Shown here: piece after piece, positions 13,449 through 39,375 of the stretch | Layout: every line of letters begins with the position of its first letter | Numbering within the stretch: the first letter of the stretch is position 1 | NCBI GenBank assembly: GCA_023511795.1 | Contig: JAIMAU010000017.1 | Location: forward strand, 1 to 39,375 | Direction: 5' to 3' | Origin: Armatimonadota bacterium | GTDB lineage: Bacteria; Armatimonadota; UBA5829; DTJY01 | Length of the DNA: 39,375 bases | Program-made: the position numbers and the translations under genes | Notes under the pieces: generated by a model | Database searches by the model: none | The model's input: the letters and a program-made list of their open reading frames with translations, nothing else | What the model was told of the DNA's origin: nothing

Positions 13449-16400
13449 TTATTGCCCAATTTCCGCCAGTACAGGCGTTACTGTTTTTAGTGTTCGCACC
13501 TTTGCCTGCCCACCAAGGGAAAGGAGATCTCGAGCCTGCAGAATTCTGGGGGACATTGGCTTATCCTCGGTAGTTTGTCTGCCCAACGAAACTATTCTTA
13601 CGTCCACTGGTTTCTCTAGAAGGTTCACCATGTTTATGACCGTTCGACTGCCGATTTTGGCAGGTAGCCATTCTACTCCCCACACCGGTTGGTTGGTTGA
13701 TGCATCTACAACGCGAATCTCGGGCAGTAGGTTCATCTTATCAAGCAGTGAGAGCAGCTTGGGCCAAAGTTCTTTATCTGGGCTTGCATCGAGAGGAATA
13801 ATCACCGCCTGTTTAGAAAGCTGGGCGACTTCGTTATCGGGAAAGTCATTTCCCCATGGGTCTTTAGATGGTGAGTTGCCGAAGATGACGCATTGGCTGG
13901 AGGGCGGCAATTTAAGGAGGCTTTTAAAGGATGCCTCTGGAAGGTGGGTTGCATTTGGAAGCATGATGATTTGGTAATCACTTCCCTTGCCGGCAGCAAG
14001 TTGCTTTTCTGAAATGAAGTCAATCTTTATGCCGCAGAAGTTCAAGGCTGTGTAAGCTCTGGACATTGCATCCAGATATTGCTGGTTTCGGGCGATAGAA
14101 GCATTTGACCACAAAATCGCCACCGGCGCCTTAACGTTCTGCAGGGCTGTAACCTCAGCCGCAAAGCGGTTTAGGTCAAGGCACGCGCGCCCGACAGCCT
14201 CCGCGCACCCTGGGCGGTCCATCACATTGCCATAGAAGTCCGACCCTTTGTCATATGTCTTTTCCCATACCCAAATAGTGGTTGCTCCCTGGCCGTGGAT
14301 TGCCCCTTGCCAAAGCGCTGTGCGGAAGTTCTCCGGTTTGATGTAATAATTCGAGCGGTCAGGGCTGATGTGGTTTTCTGAATTAAATATCGGCTTCTTG
14401 TTTAGTGAGCGCTGTAGATCATAGCCTATGTTCATTGAGCCCCAGGCGATTGTCTCGCCGCTTGGGAAAGCGTAGTTGTCATTGCCGTTAATTTGTGAAA
14501 GTTCGCCAAAAAGCTCTGGGTCAACTCCCCATGCGATTGTGTACCTTGAAAGAAGTGCTGAATCCATGATTTTTGCGTGTACAGGAACCTTTGGAGCCAT
14601 TTCATGAATAACATCTGCTTTCCATTTGTGCCAGCTTGCAAAGCGCTCTTGGTTGAACACGACATAATCGTAGAATTGCGGTGCGTCATAGTGGCCATTT
14701 GCAGGGATTGGCACCTCAGAGAAGCTTGAAAATTGGGTCTTATACCGTGCGTTCAGCGTTGCAATGTCGCCATGTACTTTGGCAAGATATTCGGCCCACA
14801 TGGCTGGTGTGTTATCACAGCCGGCGGCACGGTCGAAAATAGGCTCATTTGAGAGACAAAAGCTGTGTAGTGCCGGTTTGTCTTTGAAGAGAGGGACAAC
14901 CGTTCGCAGAAACTTCTCTATTATTTGTTTTGCTTCGGGTGCGTCCACACAATATCCAAAGAATCCACCGCCGCCTTTCATTAAATGTGGCCATTTCTGG
15001 TATGCCCAACCTGGGAAGTAGTGCGGCGAGAGGAGAATATTGACCATTACATTGTTTTTTGCCGCTTGGTCGAGAAGATTGGCGATGTCTTGGGCAGGTT
15101 TGAGATTGACCTCATTTTCCGAGGGGAAAACGGCGCTGGGACCAATCTCAACTTGAATGATGTTCACGCCATAGCCTGGCCAACGAGGCATGTCTGTCCT
15201 CACTTGGCCAAAGTGCCCATAGCCGCAGAAAAAGACTGGACCTCGGCTCTTCTTGCCACTTGAATCTTGCCTATCGCCAATGAAGCTCAAGCCCTTTATC
15301 TCAACCTTGCTCGTGCGATATCTAACAGCATTTGGCGCAAGTTTTGGATTTTTGAGATATGCCTGCATCTCCGCCATTGCGTTGTCGAGTGAGCGATTAA
15401 AATCGCCAACAGCCCAGTTAGCCCGCGTTATCTCGCCCTTCTGTAAGTCCATCCGTGCCAGCGGCAGGAACTGCTCAACCATGGTTCGCGTTACAAGCGG
15501 ATAATCGAGGGGGATTCCTTTCATCTTGCACTTTTTATAGAGTGCATCGAAATCTTTGAGTTTAGCTTCAACCTTGTCCAAATCGGCAGAAATCGCAGAA
15601 CCGAGTTTCTCAATCTTTTTTGTTCCAGCAACAACCTTGCCTTTTTCATCTGAAATGGTTATGGTGCATTCAAGCTGTCTAACTGGTGCCTTGCCGCTGT
15701 TCCACTCCCATTCGAAAGAGTTTTCGCCTGGCTTTACTTGGGCGCTCTTTTTGAAAATGATTTCGCTCCCAGCGCGAATTATAGCTTCGACGGTTGCTGT
15801 GCTTTTCCGTGTAGAATTGAGAAAGATAGCGACTGAGGCTGGAGCGTTGTCACCAATAACCGTGCCTGGCGCTAGAAACCATCCATTTATGCCTTTCGTT
15901 TCTAATGGGGAACCGATGGGTTTGAGTGAAATGTCATCAATCGCTAGTTCATCGCATAAATTGACGACGTTGATGCCAATGTTTAGGCTATTTTGGTCAT
16001 TCTTTGTTCGAAACCTTGTGGATATTTTTTGCCAATCATAGCTGCCGCTTGGGATGTTAAGGGTGTAAGAGTTCCAATCGGTGAAATGTATTGCAGATGA
16101 AACGTTTTTTCCCCGAACCCATACGCTCAATTCATACTCAGTTGCTGGCAAGACGCCGACAACCTGAAAGAGTCTGCCGTAGACCTCAGGTTCGAGAGGG
16201 CTCTCATTATGGAAGACAACGCATTGCCTGCCCGAGTAAGGGTTTTCTTTGCTTATGGCATATGTGCATTTGGCTCTGGAATACCATCCCCAACCTGCAC
16301 TGCCTTTCTCAAATCCGGGATTGGCTATCACGGGTATTACACCTGCCGTGGCTAGCCTGGCGAGTGCTAGACAAGACAAAAGTACTGTTAGAATTCGCAT
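13449..16400 (-). CDS. Secreted GH42-like glycoside hydrolase with N-terminal CBM
   Basis: 983 residues from ATG 16400, chosen because AGGAGG lies 6 bases upstream and a signal peptide (MRILTVLLSCLALARLATA) begins there. An in-frame start nine codons earlier is less likely. Residues about 20-165 form a CenC-like carbohydrate-binding module (IANPGFEKGSAGWGW ... LAIDDISL). The central TIM barrel (about 370-720) has a probable acid/base Glu519 in LSNEPIFD and a probable nucleophile Glu675 in IFNSENHIS. The following alpha/beta segment (about 755-900, APVAILWSNAS...YQIIMLPNATHL) looks like the GH42 trimerisation domain. A beta-galactosidase-type exo-activity is the family default; the real sugar is unknown. 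First gene of an operon with LacI regulator and sulfatase. Confidence 0.8.
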   Translation of the reverse strand: MRILTVLLSCLALARLATAGVIPVIANPGFEKGSAGWGWYSRAKCTYAISKENPYSGRQCVVFHNESPLEPEVYGRLFQVVGVLPATEYELSVWVRGKNVSSAIHFTDWNSYTLNIPSGSYDWQKISTRFRTKNDQNSLNIGINVVNLCDELAIDDISLKPIGSPLETKGINGWFLAPGTVIGDNAPASVAIFLNSTRKSTATVEAIIRAGSEIIFKKSAQVKPGENSFEWEWNSGKAPVRQLECTITISDEKGKVVAGTKKIEKLGSAISADLDKVEAKLKDFDALYKKCKMKGIPLDYPLVTRTMVEQFLPLARMDLQKGEITRANWAVGDFNRSLDNAMAEMQAYLKNPKLAPNAVRYRTSKVEIKGLSFIGDRQDSSGKKSRGPVFFCGYGHFGQVRTDMPRWPGYGVNIIQVEIGPSAVFPSENEVNLKPAQDIANLLDQAAKNNVMVNILLSPHYFPGWAYQKWPHLMKGGGGFFGYCVDAPEAKQIIEKFLRTVVPLFKDKPALHSFCLSNEPIFDRAAGCDNTPAMWAEYLAKVHGDIATLNARYKTQFSSFSEVPIPANGHYDAPQFYDYVVFNQERFASWHKWKADVIHEMAPKVPVHAKIMDSALLSRYTIAWGVDPELFGELSQINGNDNYAFPSGETIAWGSMNIGYDLQRSLNKKPIFNSENHISPDRSNYYIKPENFRTALWQGAIHGQGATTIWVWEKTYDKGSDFYGNVMDRPGCAEAVGRACLDLNRFAAEVTALQNVKAPVAILWSNASIARNQQYLDAMSRAYTALNFCGIKIDFISEKQLAAGKGSDYQIIMLPNATHLPEASFKSLLKLPPSSQCVIFGNSPSKDPWGNDFPDNEVAQLSKQAVIIPLDASPDKELWPKLLSLLDKMNLLPEIRVVDASTNQPVWGVEWLPAKIGSRTVINMVNLLEKPVDVRIVSLGRQTTEDKPMSPRILQARDLLSLGGQAKVRTLKTVTPVLAEIGQ

Positions 16401-33431: not shown

Positions 33432-33782
33432 GGGGGCGATAGGTGTCGACAGGGAACCTAGCAGCATAAGTTGCGAGCCGAGGTGCCGTTGGCCTCGTTA
33501 AAAGCGGCAAAAAAACAAACGCGAATAGCACTTACGCTCTCGCTGCCTAATTAGGCGGCGCGTCCGCCCGGCCTAAGCCGGCAGGGTCGGTTTCGGGCGT
33601 CACACATGCCGGATTACCCGCGGAACCTTGCCCGGGGAGTCTGCGGGGACGTTAAATCGGGCTGGCGCAGGGGAATCCCGCCTGCAGGAGTCAACTGCGC
33701 GAGAGCAAAATGCAGGATACGCTCGTAGAAGCTTATGTAGGCTGTTCCTTGGACCGGGGTTCGAGTCCCCGCGCCTCCACCA
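33432..33782 (+). ncRNA. ssrA: Transfer-messenger RNA (tmRNA)
   Basis: 351 bases. The 5' end GGGGGCGATAGGTGTCGACAGGG-type start (33432 onward) and 3' end GGTTCGAGTCCCCGCGCCTCC plus encoded ACCA form the tRNA-like acceptor stem, seven pairs with one G-U. The T arm GGTTCGAGTCC is canonical. The internal tag frame (33506-33550) starts with resume codon GGC and reads GKKTNANSTYALAA then TAA; the YALAA end is the proteolysis signal. tmRNA with SmpB rescues stalled ribosomes. Its 3' end is a well-known integration site for islands, and the defence genes start about 450 bases beyond it. Confidence 0.95.
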
Positions 33783-34011: not shown

Positions 34012-34158
34012 AGGTTTTGATCTCAGGTTTGGTACATTTCGCAACCATTCCGCGCTCGCACGATTGGAGTAGCGGGTGTTACCCACGAATAAGTCTTCGG
34101 TAACGCTCGGGGTGGTAGATTGGTCGGGCTAGTCCGTATAACTTGTGATATATAGCTG

Positions 34159-34187
34159 TTGACATGAGTCACACGGTATAGTATATT
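34159..34187 (+). promoter_or_regulatory. Sigma70 promoter of the defence operon
   Basis: TTGACA (34159-34164), 17 bases, TATATT (34182-34187): one mismatch to consensus. It is about 50 bases upstream of the first island gene. Confidence 0.75.
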
Positions 34188-34203: not shown

Positions 34204-34235
34204 GGTTACAACTATAGCAGGAGAGTTATGCGGGA

Positions 34236-37200
34236 TTGAAGACCCTTGTTCCAGATGACTACTCGGAAAGAATACGAAGTCTGCGAAGCAGGAGCGGCCT
34301 GACCCAAGTCCAGTTTGCGCAAAAGCTTGGTGTTTCGTTTGCGTCCGTCAATCGTTGGGAGAACGGCAAGTCTAAGCCCACACCTATCGTTTGGGAAATC
34401 ATAGAACGATTAGAACGATCCGGCGTCGGCGGGCTTGACGATAAACCTAAAACAGACCTAGTTGATCTCAAAGCAGACACTCGCCCATCTTCTTTGGCAG
34501 CCGATTTCTCGGCGCGCCCGGACCTCGTGCGTGCGGTTGTGGAAGGACATCGCCTGGGCTATGCTCACCTCTGTAACCCGACCTTCGCTGCAGAAATGTC
34601 GCTCATCGATCCTTTGCCGCACCAGCGTATTGCTGTATACGAGCGTATGCTTCGGCAGCCCCGCCTGCGGTTCCTGTTGGCCGATGATGCTGGCGCAGGC
34701 AAGACAATCATGGCAGGTCTCTATATCCGTGAGATGCTGAGCCGGCGATTGATACGTCGTGTTCTTATCGTTGCACCTGCTGGACTCATAGGGAACTGGC
34801 AACGTGAGTTGGAGACGCTGTTCAGCCTGGAGTTCCGTATCATCACTGGCGCGGATGCTCGCAGCGCGAACCCATTTCTCGGAAATGGAAGTGACCGAAT
34901 CATTGCCAGCATCGACACTCTTGCCGGTGAGACGATGTTCCGATGCCTTCAGCATCCCGACGTGGAACCTTATGACCTAGTGATCTTTGACGAAGCCCAC
35001 AAGCTCACTGCGGACCGAGAGCCAGACTTTCACATTCGAAAGACGGACAGGTACAGGGTAGCCGAAGCACTCGCCGGAATACACAGCGACAACCAGAGGT
35101 GGTGGCTCACCTGGAAGGCCAAGCATTTGTTGCTGCTCACCGCGACGCCGCACATGGGCAAGGATTTCCCATACTACTGCCTTTGGCGCCTTCTTGAGCC
35201 TGAGTCTCTGTCAACACTCGATGCGTTCAACTCATATCCACCAGAAGCCAGATCCCAGCACTTCCTCCGACGAACCAAGGAGGAAATGGTCTACCTGGAT
35301 GGTCGACCGATATACCCTATGCGAATATCGGACACACTTAGTTACGATCTAACTCAAGGAGAGATCAGCGAGCAGAAACTATACGACGAAACGACCGAAT
35401 ACATCCAGACATTCTACACTCCTATGAGCGTGATGAACACCACGGCGGCGCAGTTGGCGAAGAGCGTATTCCAGCGCCGATTGGCCAGCTCGACATTTGC
35501 GCTAAAGAGATCTCTGGAGAAACGCTATGAGAGGGTCACCCAGTACATCTCGGATATCAACTCCGGCAAGATAACACTGAAGCAGCTTGCGTCGCGAGCA
35601 AAGCGTCTGCGGGATATCTTTGACGATCAAACCGCCGATGAGGAGGCTCTGAGCGACGGGCGCGAAGCCAATGAAGCAGCCGAGGATGACATCATAAGTG
35701 GAGTGATAGCGCGCTCGATCGTCGATCTTGAGGCGGAAGCGGTCAAGCTGGAGTCCTTGATCAGGCTCGCAGACCAAGTCCTAGACAAGGGCGACGAATC
35801 CAAGTTTGTCAAGCTGCGGGAGATCATCCAGGACCCAAAGTACAAAGACGAGAAGCTGATCATCTTCACCGAGCATCGAGATACTCTTACGTATCTGGTA
35901 AATCGGCTGGAGGGTCTTGGTTTCACCGGTCAGGTAGCCCAAATCCACGGCGGAATGGATTATCAGGAAAGGCAGGCTCAGGTGGACTTCTTCCGCAAGC
36001 CTGCCGACCAAGGCGGAGCAACGTATCTCGTGGCAACTGACGCCGCCGGCGAAGGTATCAATCTTCAGTTCTGCCGGCTGATGGTGAACTACGATGTTCC
36101 GTGGAACCCGGCTAGACTGGAGCAGCGGATGGGCAGGATTCATCGCTATGGTCAGAAGCACGACCCGGTAATCATTCTGAACATCGTGGCCGGTAAGACG
36201 CGTGAAGGCAGGGTCATAAAGGTACTTTTGGACAAGCTGGAGCGCATTCGCAAAGAGCTGTCAGCGGACAAGGTCTTCGATGTGGTCGGACGCGTGCTCG
36301 AGGGAGTTTCCATCAAGTCGTATATCGAGCAAGCTCTCACGGAAGACGGTGCGGAAAAAGCAGTGCGTGAGATTGACGAGCGTCTGACCAAAGAGCGCGT
36401 TCAGCGCGTGCAGGAAGAAGAGAAGAGCCTATACGGCTGTGTCGGTGACGTAAAGGCCGAGCTTCCCAGACTTAGAGAAGAAATCGAGCGGGAAACGTAT
36501 CGCCGACTAATGCCCGGCTATGTGCGCAGATTCCTGGAAACTTCAATCCCACTTATTGGTGCAAAAATCGACGGTGACCCCGGCGATGGGTTTTCAATCA
36601 AGCCAGCGCAGCCTGGAGCCCTTGACCCATTGCTTCCCGAGTTGGATAGATATCCGAATGGTGAGAGAACAAAGTTCACCGTTAACAAGCCCGAATCAGA
36701 CTCCAACTTGGTTTTCTTGCACGTTGGAGAGCCCTTCTTCGATGCCTATCGCGAATACATCTGCGCTAAGTTTGCACAAGACGCATTGCGTGGAGCCGTA
36801 TTCATTGACCCGACCGCTGGCGAGCCTTACCTCTTCCACCTGGCTCTGGTCACGGTTGTGCGCAAGGCCGATCCTGGTCAGAAAGCATTCTCAGGAACGC
36901 AGACTCTTGAGTATCGGCTGGTCGGGCTTAAACAGACTGAGAATGGCGACGTCCGCGAATGCCCCGTTGAGCAACTTCTGCTTCTGAAAGGAGCAGATGG
37001 AATCACGCCATCATCTGCCCGTCTTGCAGCCGGATCAGCACATTTGATAGAGGCGGCCAAGGCATACTTATTCGAATCTGTTGCCAGAAGAATTGCCCAA
37101 GAGCGGCGCGCGGCTCTTCTGGAGTCGCTCAAGGAACGCGAGGAGTTCATCCGGCGCGGGTTCGATTACGAATACGCCGAGCTTGCAAGCGCTCGGGTTG

Positions 37201-37808
37201 CCGTAAACAAAAAACTCGCAAACGGTGATCCTGCGGCCCACGCCCGATTGGCGACCATCAAAAAACGCCAGGAGGCCATCGAGCGGCACCGGGAAGAAAC
37301 TTTGGCTATTATCCGCCGTGAGCCTGAGCTTATTTCGCCTGGAGAGGTCACGTTTCTTGCGCATGCGCTCGTTGTGCCCACGCCTTTATCAAAGGAGCTG
37401 GAAGAATACGATGCCGAAATCGAGCGCATCGCAATGGATTTTGTCCGGGCCCACGAGGAATCGCGGGGCGCTCGTGTCGTTGATGTATCCACGGCTGAAC
37501 TCGCCGTTGCCGCCGGGTTGTGCGAATACCCAGGATTCGATCTTCTCTCCCATAGGCCAGATGGAACCAAGCTTTGTATCGAGGTCAAGGGTCGGGCTCG
37601 CATGGGCGAGATCGAGCTATCGGAGAACGAGTGGGCGAAAGCCTGTAACCTTAGAAATGACTACTGGCTTTATGTTGTCTACGATTGCGCCACGGCTTTC
37701 CCAAGGCTAATGCGCGTGCAGGACCCCTTCGGAAAGCTGCTGGCCAGAATGATAGGAAGCGTCAGGATATCCGAAACCCAGATATTCGACGCAGCGCAAA
37801 ACGAATAA
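34236..37808 (+). CDS. XRE HTH / SNF2 helicase / DUF3883 fusion, DrmD-like
   Basis: 1190 residues from TTG 34236. An XRE helix-turn-helix comes first (about 10-60, SGLTQVQFAQKLGVSFASVNRWENGKSKP). The SNF2 ATPase core has motif I LLADDAGAGKT (147-157), DEAH (252-255) and LTATP (301-305). The C-terminal helicase lobe (about 535-670) has FTEHRDTL, ATDAAGEGINLQ and QRMGRIHRYGQ. A long helical region leads to DUF3883 (about 1098-1175, IEVKGRARMGEIELSENEWAKA), a nuclease-fold-like or sensing domain common in defence helicases. The helicase part resembles DrmD of class 1 DISARM. AGGAGAG lies 11 bases upstream, and a three-codon ORF at 34228-34239 overlaps the TTG. A methyltransferase follows downstream, supporting a phage-restriction role. 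Confidence 0.85.
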   Translation: MKTLVPDDYSERIRSLRSRSGLTQVQFAQKLGVSFASVNRWENGKSKPTPIVWEIIERLERSGVGGLDDKPKTDLVDLKADTRPSSLAADFSARPDLVRAVVEGHRLGYAHLCNPTFAAEMSLIDPLPHQRIAVYERMLRQPRLRFLLADDAGAGKTIMAGLYIREMLSRRLIRRVLIVAPAGLIGNWQRELETLFSLEFRIITGADARSANPFLGNGSDRIIASIDTLAGETMFRCLQHPDVEPYDLVIFDEAHKLTADREPDFHIRKTDRYRVAEALAGIHSDNQRWWLTWKAKHLLLLTATPHMGKDFPYYCLWRLLEPESLSTLDAFNSYPPEARSQHFLRRTKEEMVYLDGRPIYPMRISDTLSYDLTQGEISEQKLYDETTEYIQTFYTPMSVMNTTAAQLAKSVFQRRLASSTFALKRSLEKRYERVTQYISDINSGKITLKQLASRAKRLRDIFDDQTADEEALSDGREANEAAEDDIISGVIARSIVDLEAEAVKLESLIRLADQVLDKGDESKFVKLREIIQDPKYKDEKLIIFTEHRDTLTYLVNRLEGLGFTGQVAQIHGGMDYQERQAQVDFFRKPADQGGATYLVATDAAGEGINLQFCRLMVNYDVPWNPARLEQRMGRIHRYGQKHDPVIILNIVAGKTREGRVIKVLLDKLERIRKELSADKVFDVVGRVLEGVSIKSYIEQALTEDGAEKAVREIDERLTKERVQRVQEEEKSLYGCVGDVKAELPRLREEIERETYRRLMPGYVRRFLETSIPLIGAKIDGDPGDGFSIKPAQPGALDPLLPELDRYPNGERTKFTVNKPESDSNLVFLHVGEPFFDAYREYICAKFAQDALRGAVFIDPTAGEPYLFHLALVTVVRKADPGQKAFSGTQTLEYRLVGLKQTENGDVRECPVEQLLLLKGADGITPSSARLAAGSAHLIEAAKAYLFESVARRIAQERRAALLESLKEREEFIRRGFDYEYAELASARVAVNKKLANGDPAAHARLATIKKRQEAIERHREETLAIIRREPELISPGEVTFLAHALVVPTPLSKELEEYDAEIERIAMDFVRAHEESRGARVVDVSTAELAVAAGLCEYPGFDLLSHRPDGTKLCIEVKGRARMGEIELSENEWAKACNLRNDYWLYVVYDCATAFPRLMRVQDPFGKLLARMIGSVRISETQIFDAAQNE

Positions 37809-37819
37809 GGAGGATTTCA

Positions 37820-38549
37820 ATGACAGCGAATGCGAAGTTCGACCTGCCCAACAGCGGCTACGAAGTGATAGAGAAGATACTTCACGCTTACGTGCGCACC
37901 GGGCAGCAGGCTGTATCGCTAGACGATGTGGCGTCTCGTGCGGGAATGCACAGAACGCGAATCTCGCCCAACCACGGGTTCCTTGTGGCCGTGGGGAGTC
38001 TTGGAAGGTGGTAACAAAAAGAAGTTGACTGACAGAGGTCATCAATTGGCTCTTGCAATCTGCAACAAGATTCCTGATGACGTGTCACGGAATTGGGCTG
38101 AGATCATGCAGGGATGCGAACACACTCGCAAGGTACTGGACATGGTGAATGTCCAGGGCGGTGTGTCCAAATCCGATATGCAGGGCCGCGTATTGTCCAC
38201 TCTTAGAATCGCCAGCAGCAAAAACACGAAAACCGGCGTGAACTGCCTGATCGATATAATGCTCAAAGCCGGTCTTATTGTTGAGAGCGATGGCAAATAC
38301 GTATATAACCAAGAGTTCGACAGCACAGAAGCTAGCACGAGAGACGTATCCGCAACGCTCGATGAGCCGGGTATTACAAAGCCCCTTGAGACTCAGACTC
38401 AGGTAGAGCAGATCGTCAGCGAAAGTCGGGTGGCACCAGACCCCTCGGTACATATCAACGTGCAGATCCATATCGACGCAAACGCTACGCCGGAGCAAAT
38501 TGACCAAATCTTCGCAAGTATGGCCAAACATCTCTACGGCAGGAGCTGA
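37820..38549 (+). pseudogene. Winged-helix (DUF5343-like?) protein, interrupted by a +1 frameshift
   Basis: Starts at ATG 37820 with AAGGAGG seven bases upstream, 11 bases after the helicase stop. The first frame codes 64 residues (SLDDVASRAGMHRTRIS ... HGFLVAVGSL) and hits TAA at 38012. The frame one base on continues EGGNKKKLTDRGHQLALAI and stays open to 38549. Joined at about 38003 the product would be 242 residues: a winged-helix-like N-terminus, a middle region and a conserved-looking C-terminus (VHINVQIHIDANATPEQIDQIFASMAKHLYGRS). The family is probably DUF5343-like, but this is a weak call. The join may be a mutation, a base error or a programmed slip (GGGGAG then CTT precedes it). The role is unknown; it sits inside the defence operon. 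Confidence 0.6.
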
Positions 38550-38550
38550 A

Positions 38551-39066
38551 ATGGATGCATCCGAAGTCAAGCGAATGCTGGAAGTAGCTAGGCGGATTCA
38601 GAGTATTTGCCCAGTCGCGAGCAGAAAACAAGAGCCGAAGCCCGAGAAGCTTTTTGACTTGCTGGTCACCGAATCGGAACTTAATGAATGCTGTCGCAAG
38701 CTCTTTATGGATGGACACTATGCTAACGCGGTACTAGAGGCTTACAAGTGTCTAAACAACTATGTCAGAACGAAGGTCGCGTCTTCCGAAGATGGAAGCG
38801 ACCTAATGAAGAAAGTGTTCAGCGCGAAAAGTCCCGAGCTGAGGATCAGTCGGTTCCGAGGGAAAAGCAACTACAATGAGCAGCTCGGCTATATGGAGAT
38901 ATACTCCGGGTGCATGACGGGTATCCGCAACCCACGTGCCCACGAACATGCGCACGAGGATAGCCCCGATGAGGCTCTGGAGCTAATAATCTGGGCCAAT
39001 CATCTTATGCGAAAGGCAAAGCAGGCAAAGCGAGCGAGGAAAAAGAGGAAGAGTATACATGACTGA
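38551..39066 (+). CDS. TIGR02391 (Ymh) family protein
   Basis: 171 residues from ATG 38551, with AGGAG six bases upstream and starting one base after the previous stop. The core LFMDGHYANAVLEAYKCLNNYVRTK and RNPRAHEHAHEDSPDEALELIIWANHLMRK match the TIGR02391/Ymh family: a helical domain with a conserved R-N-P-x-A-H motif found near restriction and other defence genes. The RNPRAHE motif resembles the HEPN-type RxxxxH nuclease signature (R-N-P-R-A-H), so an RNA-cleaving toxin-like activity is possible but is inference. The last bases overlap the start of the methyltransferase gene by eight, so they are translationally coupled. Confidence 0.8.
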   Translation: MDASEVKRMLEVARRIQSICPVASRKQEPKPEKLFDLLVTESELNECCRKLFMDGHYANAVLEAYKCLNNYVRTKVASSEDGSDLMKKVFSAKSPELRISRFRGKSNYNEQLGYMEIYSGCMTGIRNPRAHEHAHEDSPDEALELIIWANHLMRKAKQAKRARKKRKSIHD

Positions 39067-39375
39067 TAACCCCCGTCTCATCGAATCGGCGTTTCCGCTG
39101 AAACAGACATCTATCAATTCCGTGCATGAGAAGAACGTGCGGCACGGGCATATATCGACGCTTCATATCTGGCCCGCTAGGCGGCCGCTGGCGGCGTGTA
39201 GGGCGGCGCTTATCGCCACGCTTCTGCCGGACCCCGGAACCGAGGAAGAACGCAAGAAGCTCTGCGAGCGTATCGGCGGCAAGGTCGTCAAGGTCATCAA
39301 ACAGAAGAAACTTCCTAGCGGCCGAATTGAGAATGTCGAGACCGAGGAGACCGTCGGCGGCATACTGCATTGGGG
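39059..39375 (+). CDS. DUF1156 adenine-specific DNA methyltransferase, N-terminus only
   Basis: The first 105 codons from ATG 39059 are inside the window and the frame runs off the right edge. The start overlaps the TIGR02391 stop by eight bases. The N-terminus (PRLIESAFPLKQTSIN then HEKNVRHGHISTLHIWPARRPLAACRAALIATLLPDP) is the DUF1156 domain of COG1743 adenine methylases, such as class 1 DISARM DrmMI and the DUF1156 protein of the DUF499/DUF3780 defence clusters. GGILHW at the edge agrees with this group. The methylase is expected to mark self DNA; its catalytic motif lies outside the window. Confidence 0.85.
   Translation, partial: MTDNPRLIESAFPLKQTSINSVHEKNVRHGHISTLHIWPARRPLAACRAALIATLLPDPGTEEERKKLCERIGGKVVKVIKQKKLPSGRIENVETEETVGGILHW

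Follow-up and report, generated by a model that had tools for sequence, protein, structure and literature searches.

A phage-defence operon of the Hma or Type-1 BREX-related (BR) kind opens with a gene, hmaA, in which a helix-turn-helix (HTH) of the XRE type is fused to an SNF2 helicase-nuclease. We conclude that HmaA is very probably its own transcriptional regulator, whose HTH would bind a conserved palindrome in the promoter of its operon, with autorepression as the likeliest outcome. The window analysed, a stretch of 39,375 nucleotides, is a complete contig.

The hmaA gene and its product

The hmaA gene (34236..37808, + strand) encodes 1190 amino acids from a TTG start, which is also kept in the homologous loci L035, L036 and L039. 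An ATG at 34228 was rejected as an alternative start, being out of frame and opening a frame of only three codons. HTH and helicase are parts of one open reading frame, not the products of an enzyme gene and a separate regulator gene. The best PADLOC call for this frame was HmaA (516.7 bits, E = 3.4e-155, residues 90–1165), ahead of DrmD, BrxH and DpdE. A DISARM DrmD identity was dismissed, the NCBIfam NF038317 score (352.7 bits) lying far under the cut-off of 610 bits.

The protein consists, in this order, of the XRE/HTH_3 domain (residues 9–62), a floppy linker, the SNF2 helicase and a C-terminal NOV_C domain. The helicase core (about residues 121–652; 34596..36191, + strand) gave Pfam matches to ResIII (125–306), SNF2-rel_dom and Helicase_C (523–639), and its motifs DDAGAGKT and FDEAHK were invariant across the homologues. 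By sequence, the nearest solved helicase is RapA, an RNA polymerase-associated SNF2 ATPase that differs from HmaA in having no HTH match at its N-terminus and in not being a defence protein. NOV_C (residues 1062–1153; 37419..37694, + strand; Pfam E = 1.6e-16) has a PD-(D/E)XK-like character: D1102 and the E1116-V-K1118 segment were invariant in 40 homologues. The C-terminus is thus a predicted PD-(D/E)XK-like nuclease, as in most Type-1 BR helicases.

The initial annotation had placed a complete XRE HTH in front of the helicase, and both the domain and its coordinates proved right. The domain (34260..34421, + strand; recognition segment GVSFASVNRWEN; recognition-helix residues N39, R40 and W41) was recognized by Pfam HTH_3 on residues 13–58 (E = 1.1e-10, 41.8 bits, cut-off 23), and HTH_31 matched residues 10–56. 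An AlphaFold2 model of residues 1–90 had four helices (9–20, 24–31, 35–42 and 50–62) forming a compact domain of XRE fold between residues 9 and 62, with a block pLDDT of 90–95. Foldseek related it to HigA2, P22 c2, HipB, SinR, DdrO and the restriction-modification (RM) controller C.Esp1396I, with a probability of about 1 and E-values of 0.01–0.1, in line with the shortness of the domain. A sequence profile of the HmaA N-termini picked up the same kind of XRE proteins.

Between HTH and helicase lies an unstructured, fast-evolving linker (about residues 63–88; 34422..34499, + strand), and in the full-length model a disordered stretch (69–85, pLDDT <50) parts the two domains. Compared with L035, an 83%-identical homologue, the linker was 27% identical and the HTH 80%. 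Against the same homologue, dN/dS was 0.26 for HTH residues 9–62, and the linker (63–88) was essentially unconstrained (pN 0.53). These values point to purifying selection on the HTH. Together with the fold prediction, they establish the N-terminal XRE/HTH_3 domain of HmaA as genuine.

Operon and genomic context

Downstream of hmaA there is a variable cassette of two genes. The first is DUF5343-like (37820..38549, + strand). It was recognized from two overlapping frames and by phmmer homologues in L038, L042 (Moorella stamsii) and L073, of which those in L038 and L042 match DUF5343. An apparent frameshift near 38000 divides it between two frames and would fit an assembly error as well as decay. 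The second gene (38500..39066, + strand) belongs to the Hypoth_Ymh family (Pfam PF09509, E = 1.1e-32) and resembles Aga_HEPN of PADLOC. It is followed by the first 105 residues of hmaB, a DUF1156 DNA adenine methylase (39059..39373, + strand; PADLOC HmaB, E = 1.2e-18). The 39,375-base contig ends inside this gene, before any hmaC.

In the homologous loci hmaB is complete, and a DUF499 ATPase, HmaC, is found downstream in most of those whose contigs reach that far. Where contigs are long enough, the order is hmaA, variable cassette, hmaB, hmaC. The cassette contains DUF5343 plus Hypoth_Ymh, UvrD, a SMODS nucleotidyltransferase or others. For example, L110, from Luteimonas huabeiensis, encodes a CBASS-like SMODS nucleotidyltransferase (13583–14464) between hmaA and hmaB, and L047 (13399–15486) and L054 (13594–15627) have UvrD-type helicases in the same place. 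This content and order place hmaA at the head of an Hma / Type-1 BR phage-defence operon.

Another contig of the genome, C19, carries the end of a HmaB and the genome's one DUF499/HmaC. It was not assigned to the operon of the window, as the start of its HmaC looks different from that of the HTH clade. The same genome encodes a second HmaA (L002; G000:C2:343505-346579), which is 36% identical, has no HTH and has an N-terminus that looks TUDOR-type. In this second system, too, the contig stops within hmaB. A tmRNA gene (33432–33782, + strand; tag ANSTYALAA) precedes the Hma operon of the window by about 450 bp. tmRNA genes are typical integration sites for mobile defence islands.

Distribution of the HTH among HmaA proteins

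HmaA-like proteins were found in 53 of 291 genomes of the phylum. They fell into a closer group (49–83% identity), aligning mostly from residues 1–12, and a distant group, aligning mostly from residue 74 or later. With peptide patterns of the helicase, 80 close relatives were picked up among 84,980 species genomes; they came from Planctomycetota, Proteobacteria, Chloroflexi, Firmicutes, Verrucomicrobia, Acidobacteria, Latescibacterota, Spirochaetia and others. Nearly all of them had the HTH, with a recognition segment mostly near GVSFATVNRWEN. Searches of plasmid and phage collections returned no match extending into the HTH.

In a tree built only from the helicase portion, a fully supported branch splits TUDOR-type from HTH-type HmaA. 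On the HTH side, 76 of 86 members carry the domain, a proportion that may run slightly high, since the list was ordered by how closely its members resemble the protein of the window. The remaining ten are scattered tips, which begin at about residue 85 or have a different N-terminus, and we read them mostly as probable losses. Among them, L067 (2028–6248), of cyanobacterial origin, has a fused caspase-like CHAT domain in place of the HTH, L071 (8957–13432) has an N-terminal DUF1822 fusion, and L114 has a decayed HTH. Gene splitting was considered as well: stand-alone XRE genes were sought beside hmaA in the HTH-less relatives, and none was next to it. XRE-like genes of L009 and L067 lie at least about 1 kb upstream on the opposite strand and were set aside as unrelated.

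The ten exceptions, and the weakness of TTG as a start, could be taken to mean that the N-terminal extension is untranslated and that HmaA begins near residue 85. This reading can hardly be correct, since the HTH is under purifying selection, the TTG is conserved and the domain is kept by the great majority of the clade.

The N-termini of L002 and L015–L034 differ from that of the window protein, and were taken by eye as the TUDOR domain described in PMC12839542. In a large clade spanning many phyla, the XRE HTH thus stands at the position held by TUDOR in ordinary HmaA, and the HmaA analysed here is a variant architecture. The expectation that defence helicases usually lack a repressor domain holds for TUDOR-type HmaA and for other defence helicases; within this clade it does not, the HTH fusion being the norm.

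A conserved palindrome upstream of hmaA

A 16-bp palindrome, TATAnCAnnTGnTATA, was found upstream of 65 of the 78 HTH-bearing loci and upstream of none of 10 HTH-less relatives. Sites were scored against TATNNCANNTGNNATA, with 10 fixed bases and at least 9 matches required within 300 bp upstream. By this score the palindrome occurred in 3 of 2402 control windows taken from elsewhere in these loci, and shuffled sequences contained it at a rate of 0.6%. The copy in the window, TATAACTTGTGATATA (34137..34152), has 9 of the 10 fixed positions. With its one mismatch it would be weak by itself, and it becomes convincing through its conservation in the family.

The consensus had first been spotted by eye in these upstream regions, and hence it was relearned de novo from random halves of the loci. 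Both halves returned TATAnCAnnTGnTATA, which recovered 38 of 43 and 38 of 42 held-out loci at a false-positive rate of 1% (the 99% control quantile). The unchanged pattern was also applied to ten additional loci, which had come from IMG/VR and from other genome searches. Nine of them reached 9 of 10 positions; several of the ten are near-identical or identical to known loci, and the two most distinct positives are 80–81% identical to the training set. The sole further locus at 58% identity, L165, had no palindrome. An imperfect inverted repeat around the −10 of the window, GTCACACG...CGTGTGGC, had been the first operator candidate. L035 does not preserve this repeat, and TATAnCAnnTGnTATA took its place. 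We propose TATAnCAnnTGnTATA, newly described here, as the conserved candidate operator of HTH-HmaA operons.

The palindrome varies with the HTH

The palindrome accompanied the canonical recognition helix in 69 of 76 loci, versus one of nine with an altered helix (Fisher p = 1e-6). In tree-independent pairs, helix and operator changed together 7.7 times on average and never in the opposite sense (median p = 0.008). TUDOR-type HmaA loci had neither HTH nor palindrome. Seven of the 76 canonical-helix loci were without a good palindrome (e.g., L089, L165, L069 and L010). Two second copies of HTH-HmaA, L170 and L171, have divergent recognition helices (TLLTVHRWEA and TPLTVHRWES, respectively) and no consensus palindrome. 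L170 carries TTTATCAAGTGATAAA instead, possibly reflecting an altered operator specificity.

Because the palindrome goes with the HTH, is lost in the members that have lost the HTH and varies with the recognition helix, we infer that HmaA regulates its own operon. The HTH would bind the 16-bp palindrome, presumably as a dimer. The initial suggestion that the fusion lets the effector control its own operon thus gains strong support from a palindrome found across phyla in the promoters of HTH-bearing members.

One could also suppose that another regulator, from the operon or from the host, binds the palindrome, and that the HTH is a protein-interaction domain. The second conserved element of these promoters, described below, is unlike the palindrome and might have a reader of its own, such as HmaB or HmaC, which would suit this explanation. 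It is nevertheless improbable, as the palindrome vanishes when the HTH is lost or its recognition helix changes, and the only other constant genes, hmaB and hmaC, are present in HTH-less systems too.

Promoter geometry and sign of control

The palindrome of the window precedes a sigma-70-like promoter, TTGACA-17-TATATT (34159..34187, + strand; 11 of 12 consensus positions), and the spacing between the two is the same in L035, L060 and others. The promoter spacer contains an accessory element, CACACGGT (34170..34177, + strand), at 33 bp from where the palindrome starts; it is a degenerate copy with 6 of the 8 positions of CACGCGAT. The left arm of the rejected GTCACACG...CGTGTGGC repeat overlaps this element. 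In the homologues the accessory element (CACGCGAT, or CACnCGAT) lies either 30–33 bp from the start of the palindrome or, as reverse complement, at about −22 to −25 bp. The two arrangements mirror each other, with about 28 bp between the centres of palindrome and element, and were seen 27 and 28 times. The accessory element has no symmetry, does not resemble the palindrome and is not a second copy of it. The regulatory module therefore appears to be a palindrome plus one asymmetric element, usable in either orientation. The CACnCGAT element may be read by another part of HmaA, or by HmaB or HmaC; it might also serve as a methylation site.

The place of the palindrome relative to a sigma-70-like promoter differs: in many loci it overlaps the −10, and in the subclade of the window it lies immediately upstream of the −35, with the accessory element within the spacer. 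Since the core promoter of most loci is overlapped by either the palindrome or the accessory element, repression is the likeliest sign of control. Autorepression would keep the whole operon (hmaA, variable cassette, hmaB and hmaC) at a low homeostatic level.

The position of the palindrome just upstream of the −35 in the window's subclade is compatible with activation too. The HTH might activate the operon, or activate it at low dose and repress it at high dose as RM controllers do, the palindrome and the accessory element being two operators. The fixed distance between the elements, the accessory site in the spacer and the resemblance of the HTH to C.Esp1396I would all agree with such a scheme. 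We regard it as possible but doubtful: the overlap of the palindrome with the −10 in many loci favours repression, and the accessory element does not repeat the palindrome.

The other role proposed in the initial annotation was that the fusion aims the helicase at a DNA sequence. As a target-recognition domain fused in cis to the effector, the HTH would steer the helicase-nuclease to a site on invading DNA, and additional DNA contacts are conceivable. The conserved site, however, is in the system's own promoter. The bare palindrome occurred 5 times in the host genome, versus 4 times for a reversed control, which is chance level and also speaks against a genome-wide regulon in the host. The exact module was present in none of the 291 genomes of the phylum, the degenerate copy of the window falling outside the exact pattern. 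In 2.9 million IMG/VR contigs, searched on both strands for one module orientation, it was found only on two contigs, both encoding HTH-HmaA. A targeting role finds no support in these counts and is highly improbable.

Returning to autoregulation, HmaA might further sense its own engagement. At rest it would sit on its operator; drawn onto invading DNA together with HmaB and HmaC, it would vacate the operator, and the operon would be induced. CACnCGAT would then be read by a second surface, or by a partner, of the same complex. We consider this extension rather unlikely, any relief of repression on infection being conjectural.

Comparison with known defence systems

The Hma system was named in PMC8565338. 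According to the accessible text of a 2026 study (PMC12839542), Type-1 BR combines three proteins, a DUF499 ATPase, a DUF1156 N6-methylase and an SNF2 helicase. The helicase begins with a TUDOR domain and in most cases ends with a PD-(D/E)XK nuclease, which is present in 79% of Type-1 BR taxa. The operons of the homologues agree with the Hma / Type-1 DUF499-centred BR systems in having an SNF2 helicase with a PD-(D/E)XK-like C-terminus, a DUF1156 methylase and a DUF499 ATPase. They differ in that the published BR helicases, as far as that text describes them, have a TUDOR where the XRE HTH stands here, and in that the operon begins with hmaA, preceded by a conserved candidate operator. The accessible text of PMC8565338 and PMC12839542 mentions neither the HTH-HmaA fusion nor the operator. 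In the open-licence literature, of which our coverage was incomplete, we found neither an HmaA effector with a fused HTH nor a TATAnCAnnTGnTATA operator described.

BrxR is a wHTH-WYL protein that binds a pseudo-palindrome in the BREX promoter (PMC9122589). The BrxR and CapW WYL regulators of BREX and CBASS resemble the present case in pairing a pseudo-palindrome in a defence promoter with a binder from the same operon. BrxR is, however, a separate protein, whereas here the putative regulatory domain is part of the effector, and a WYL domain for ligand sensing is missing. RptR and the C proteins are separate regulators too (PMC12255303). The C proteins of Type II RM systems, such as C.Esp1396I, share the XRE fold and autoregulate a restriction operon (PMC12255303), as is proposed here for HmaA, but they are encoded by separate small genes. 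In HmaA the HTH is part of the enzyme, and the candidate operator is one palindrome with a dissimilar accessory element. The nearest precedent for an enzyme-regulator fusion is found in the M.SsoII-type cytosine methyltransferases, in which, according to the accessible parts of PMC3978073 and PMC6100179, a 71-residue N-terminal region regulates transcription of their own system. In those systems the regulatory region belongs to the protective methylase, and in HmaA the HTH belongs to the helicase-nuclease effector.

Where it is known how a defence system contains the danger of its effectors or is induced, the regulators are separate (BrxR, CapW, RptR and C proteins). In HTH-HmaA, effector and putative regulator are one polypeptide, in a lineage found in many phyla. 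The precise operator makes two ideas testable, self-repression by a helicase-nuclease and the lifting of this repression when phage DNA is engaged. If the second were true, the operon would be induced exactly while its enzyme is at work.
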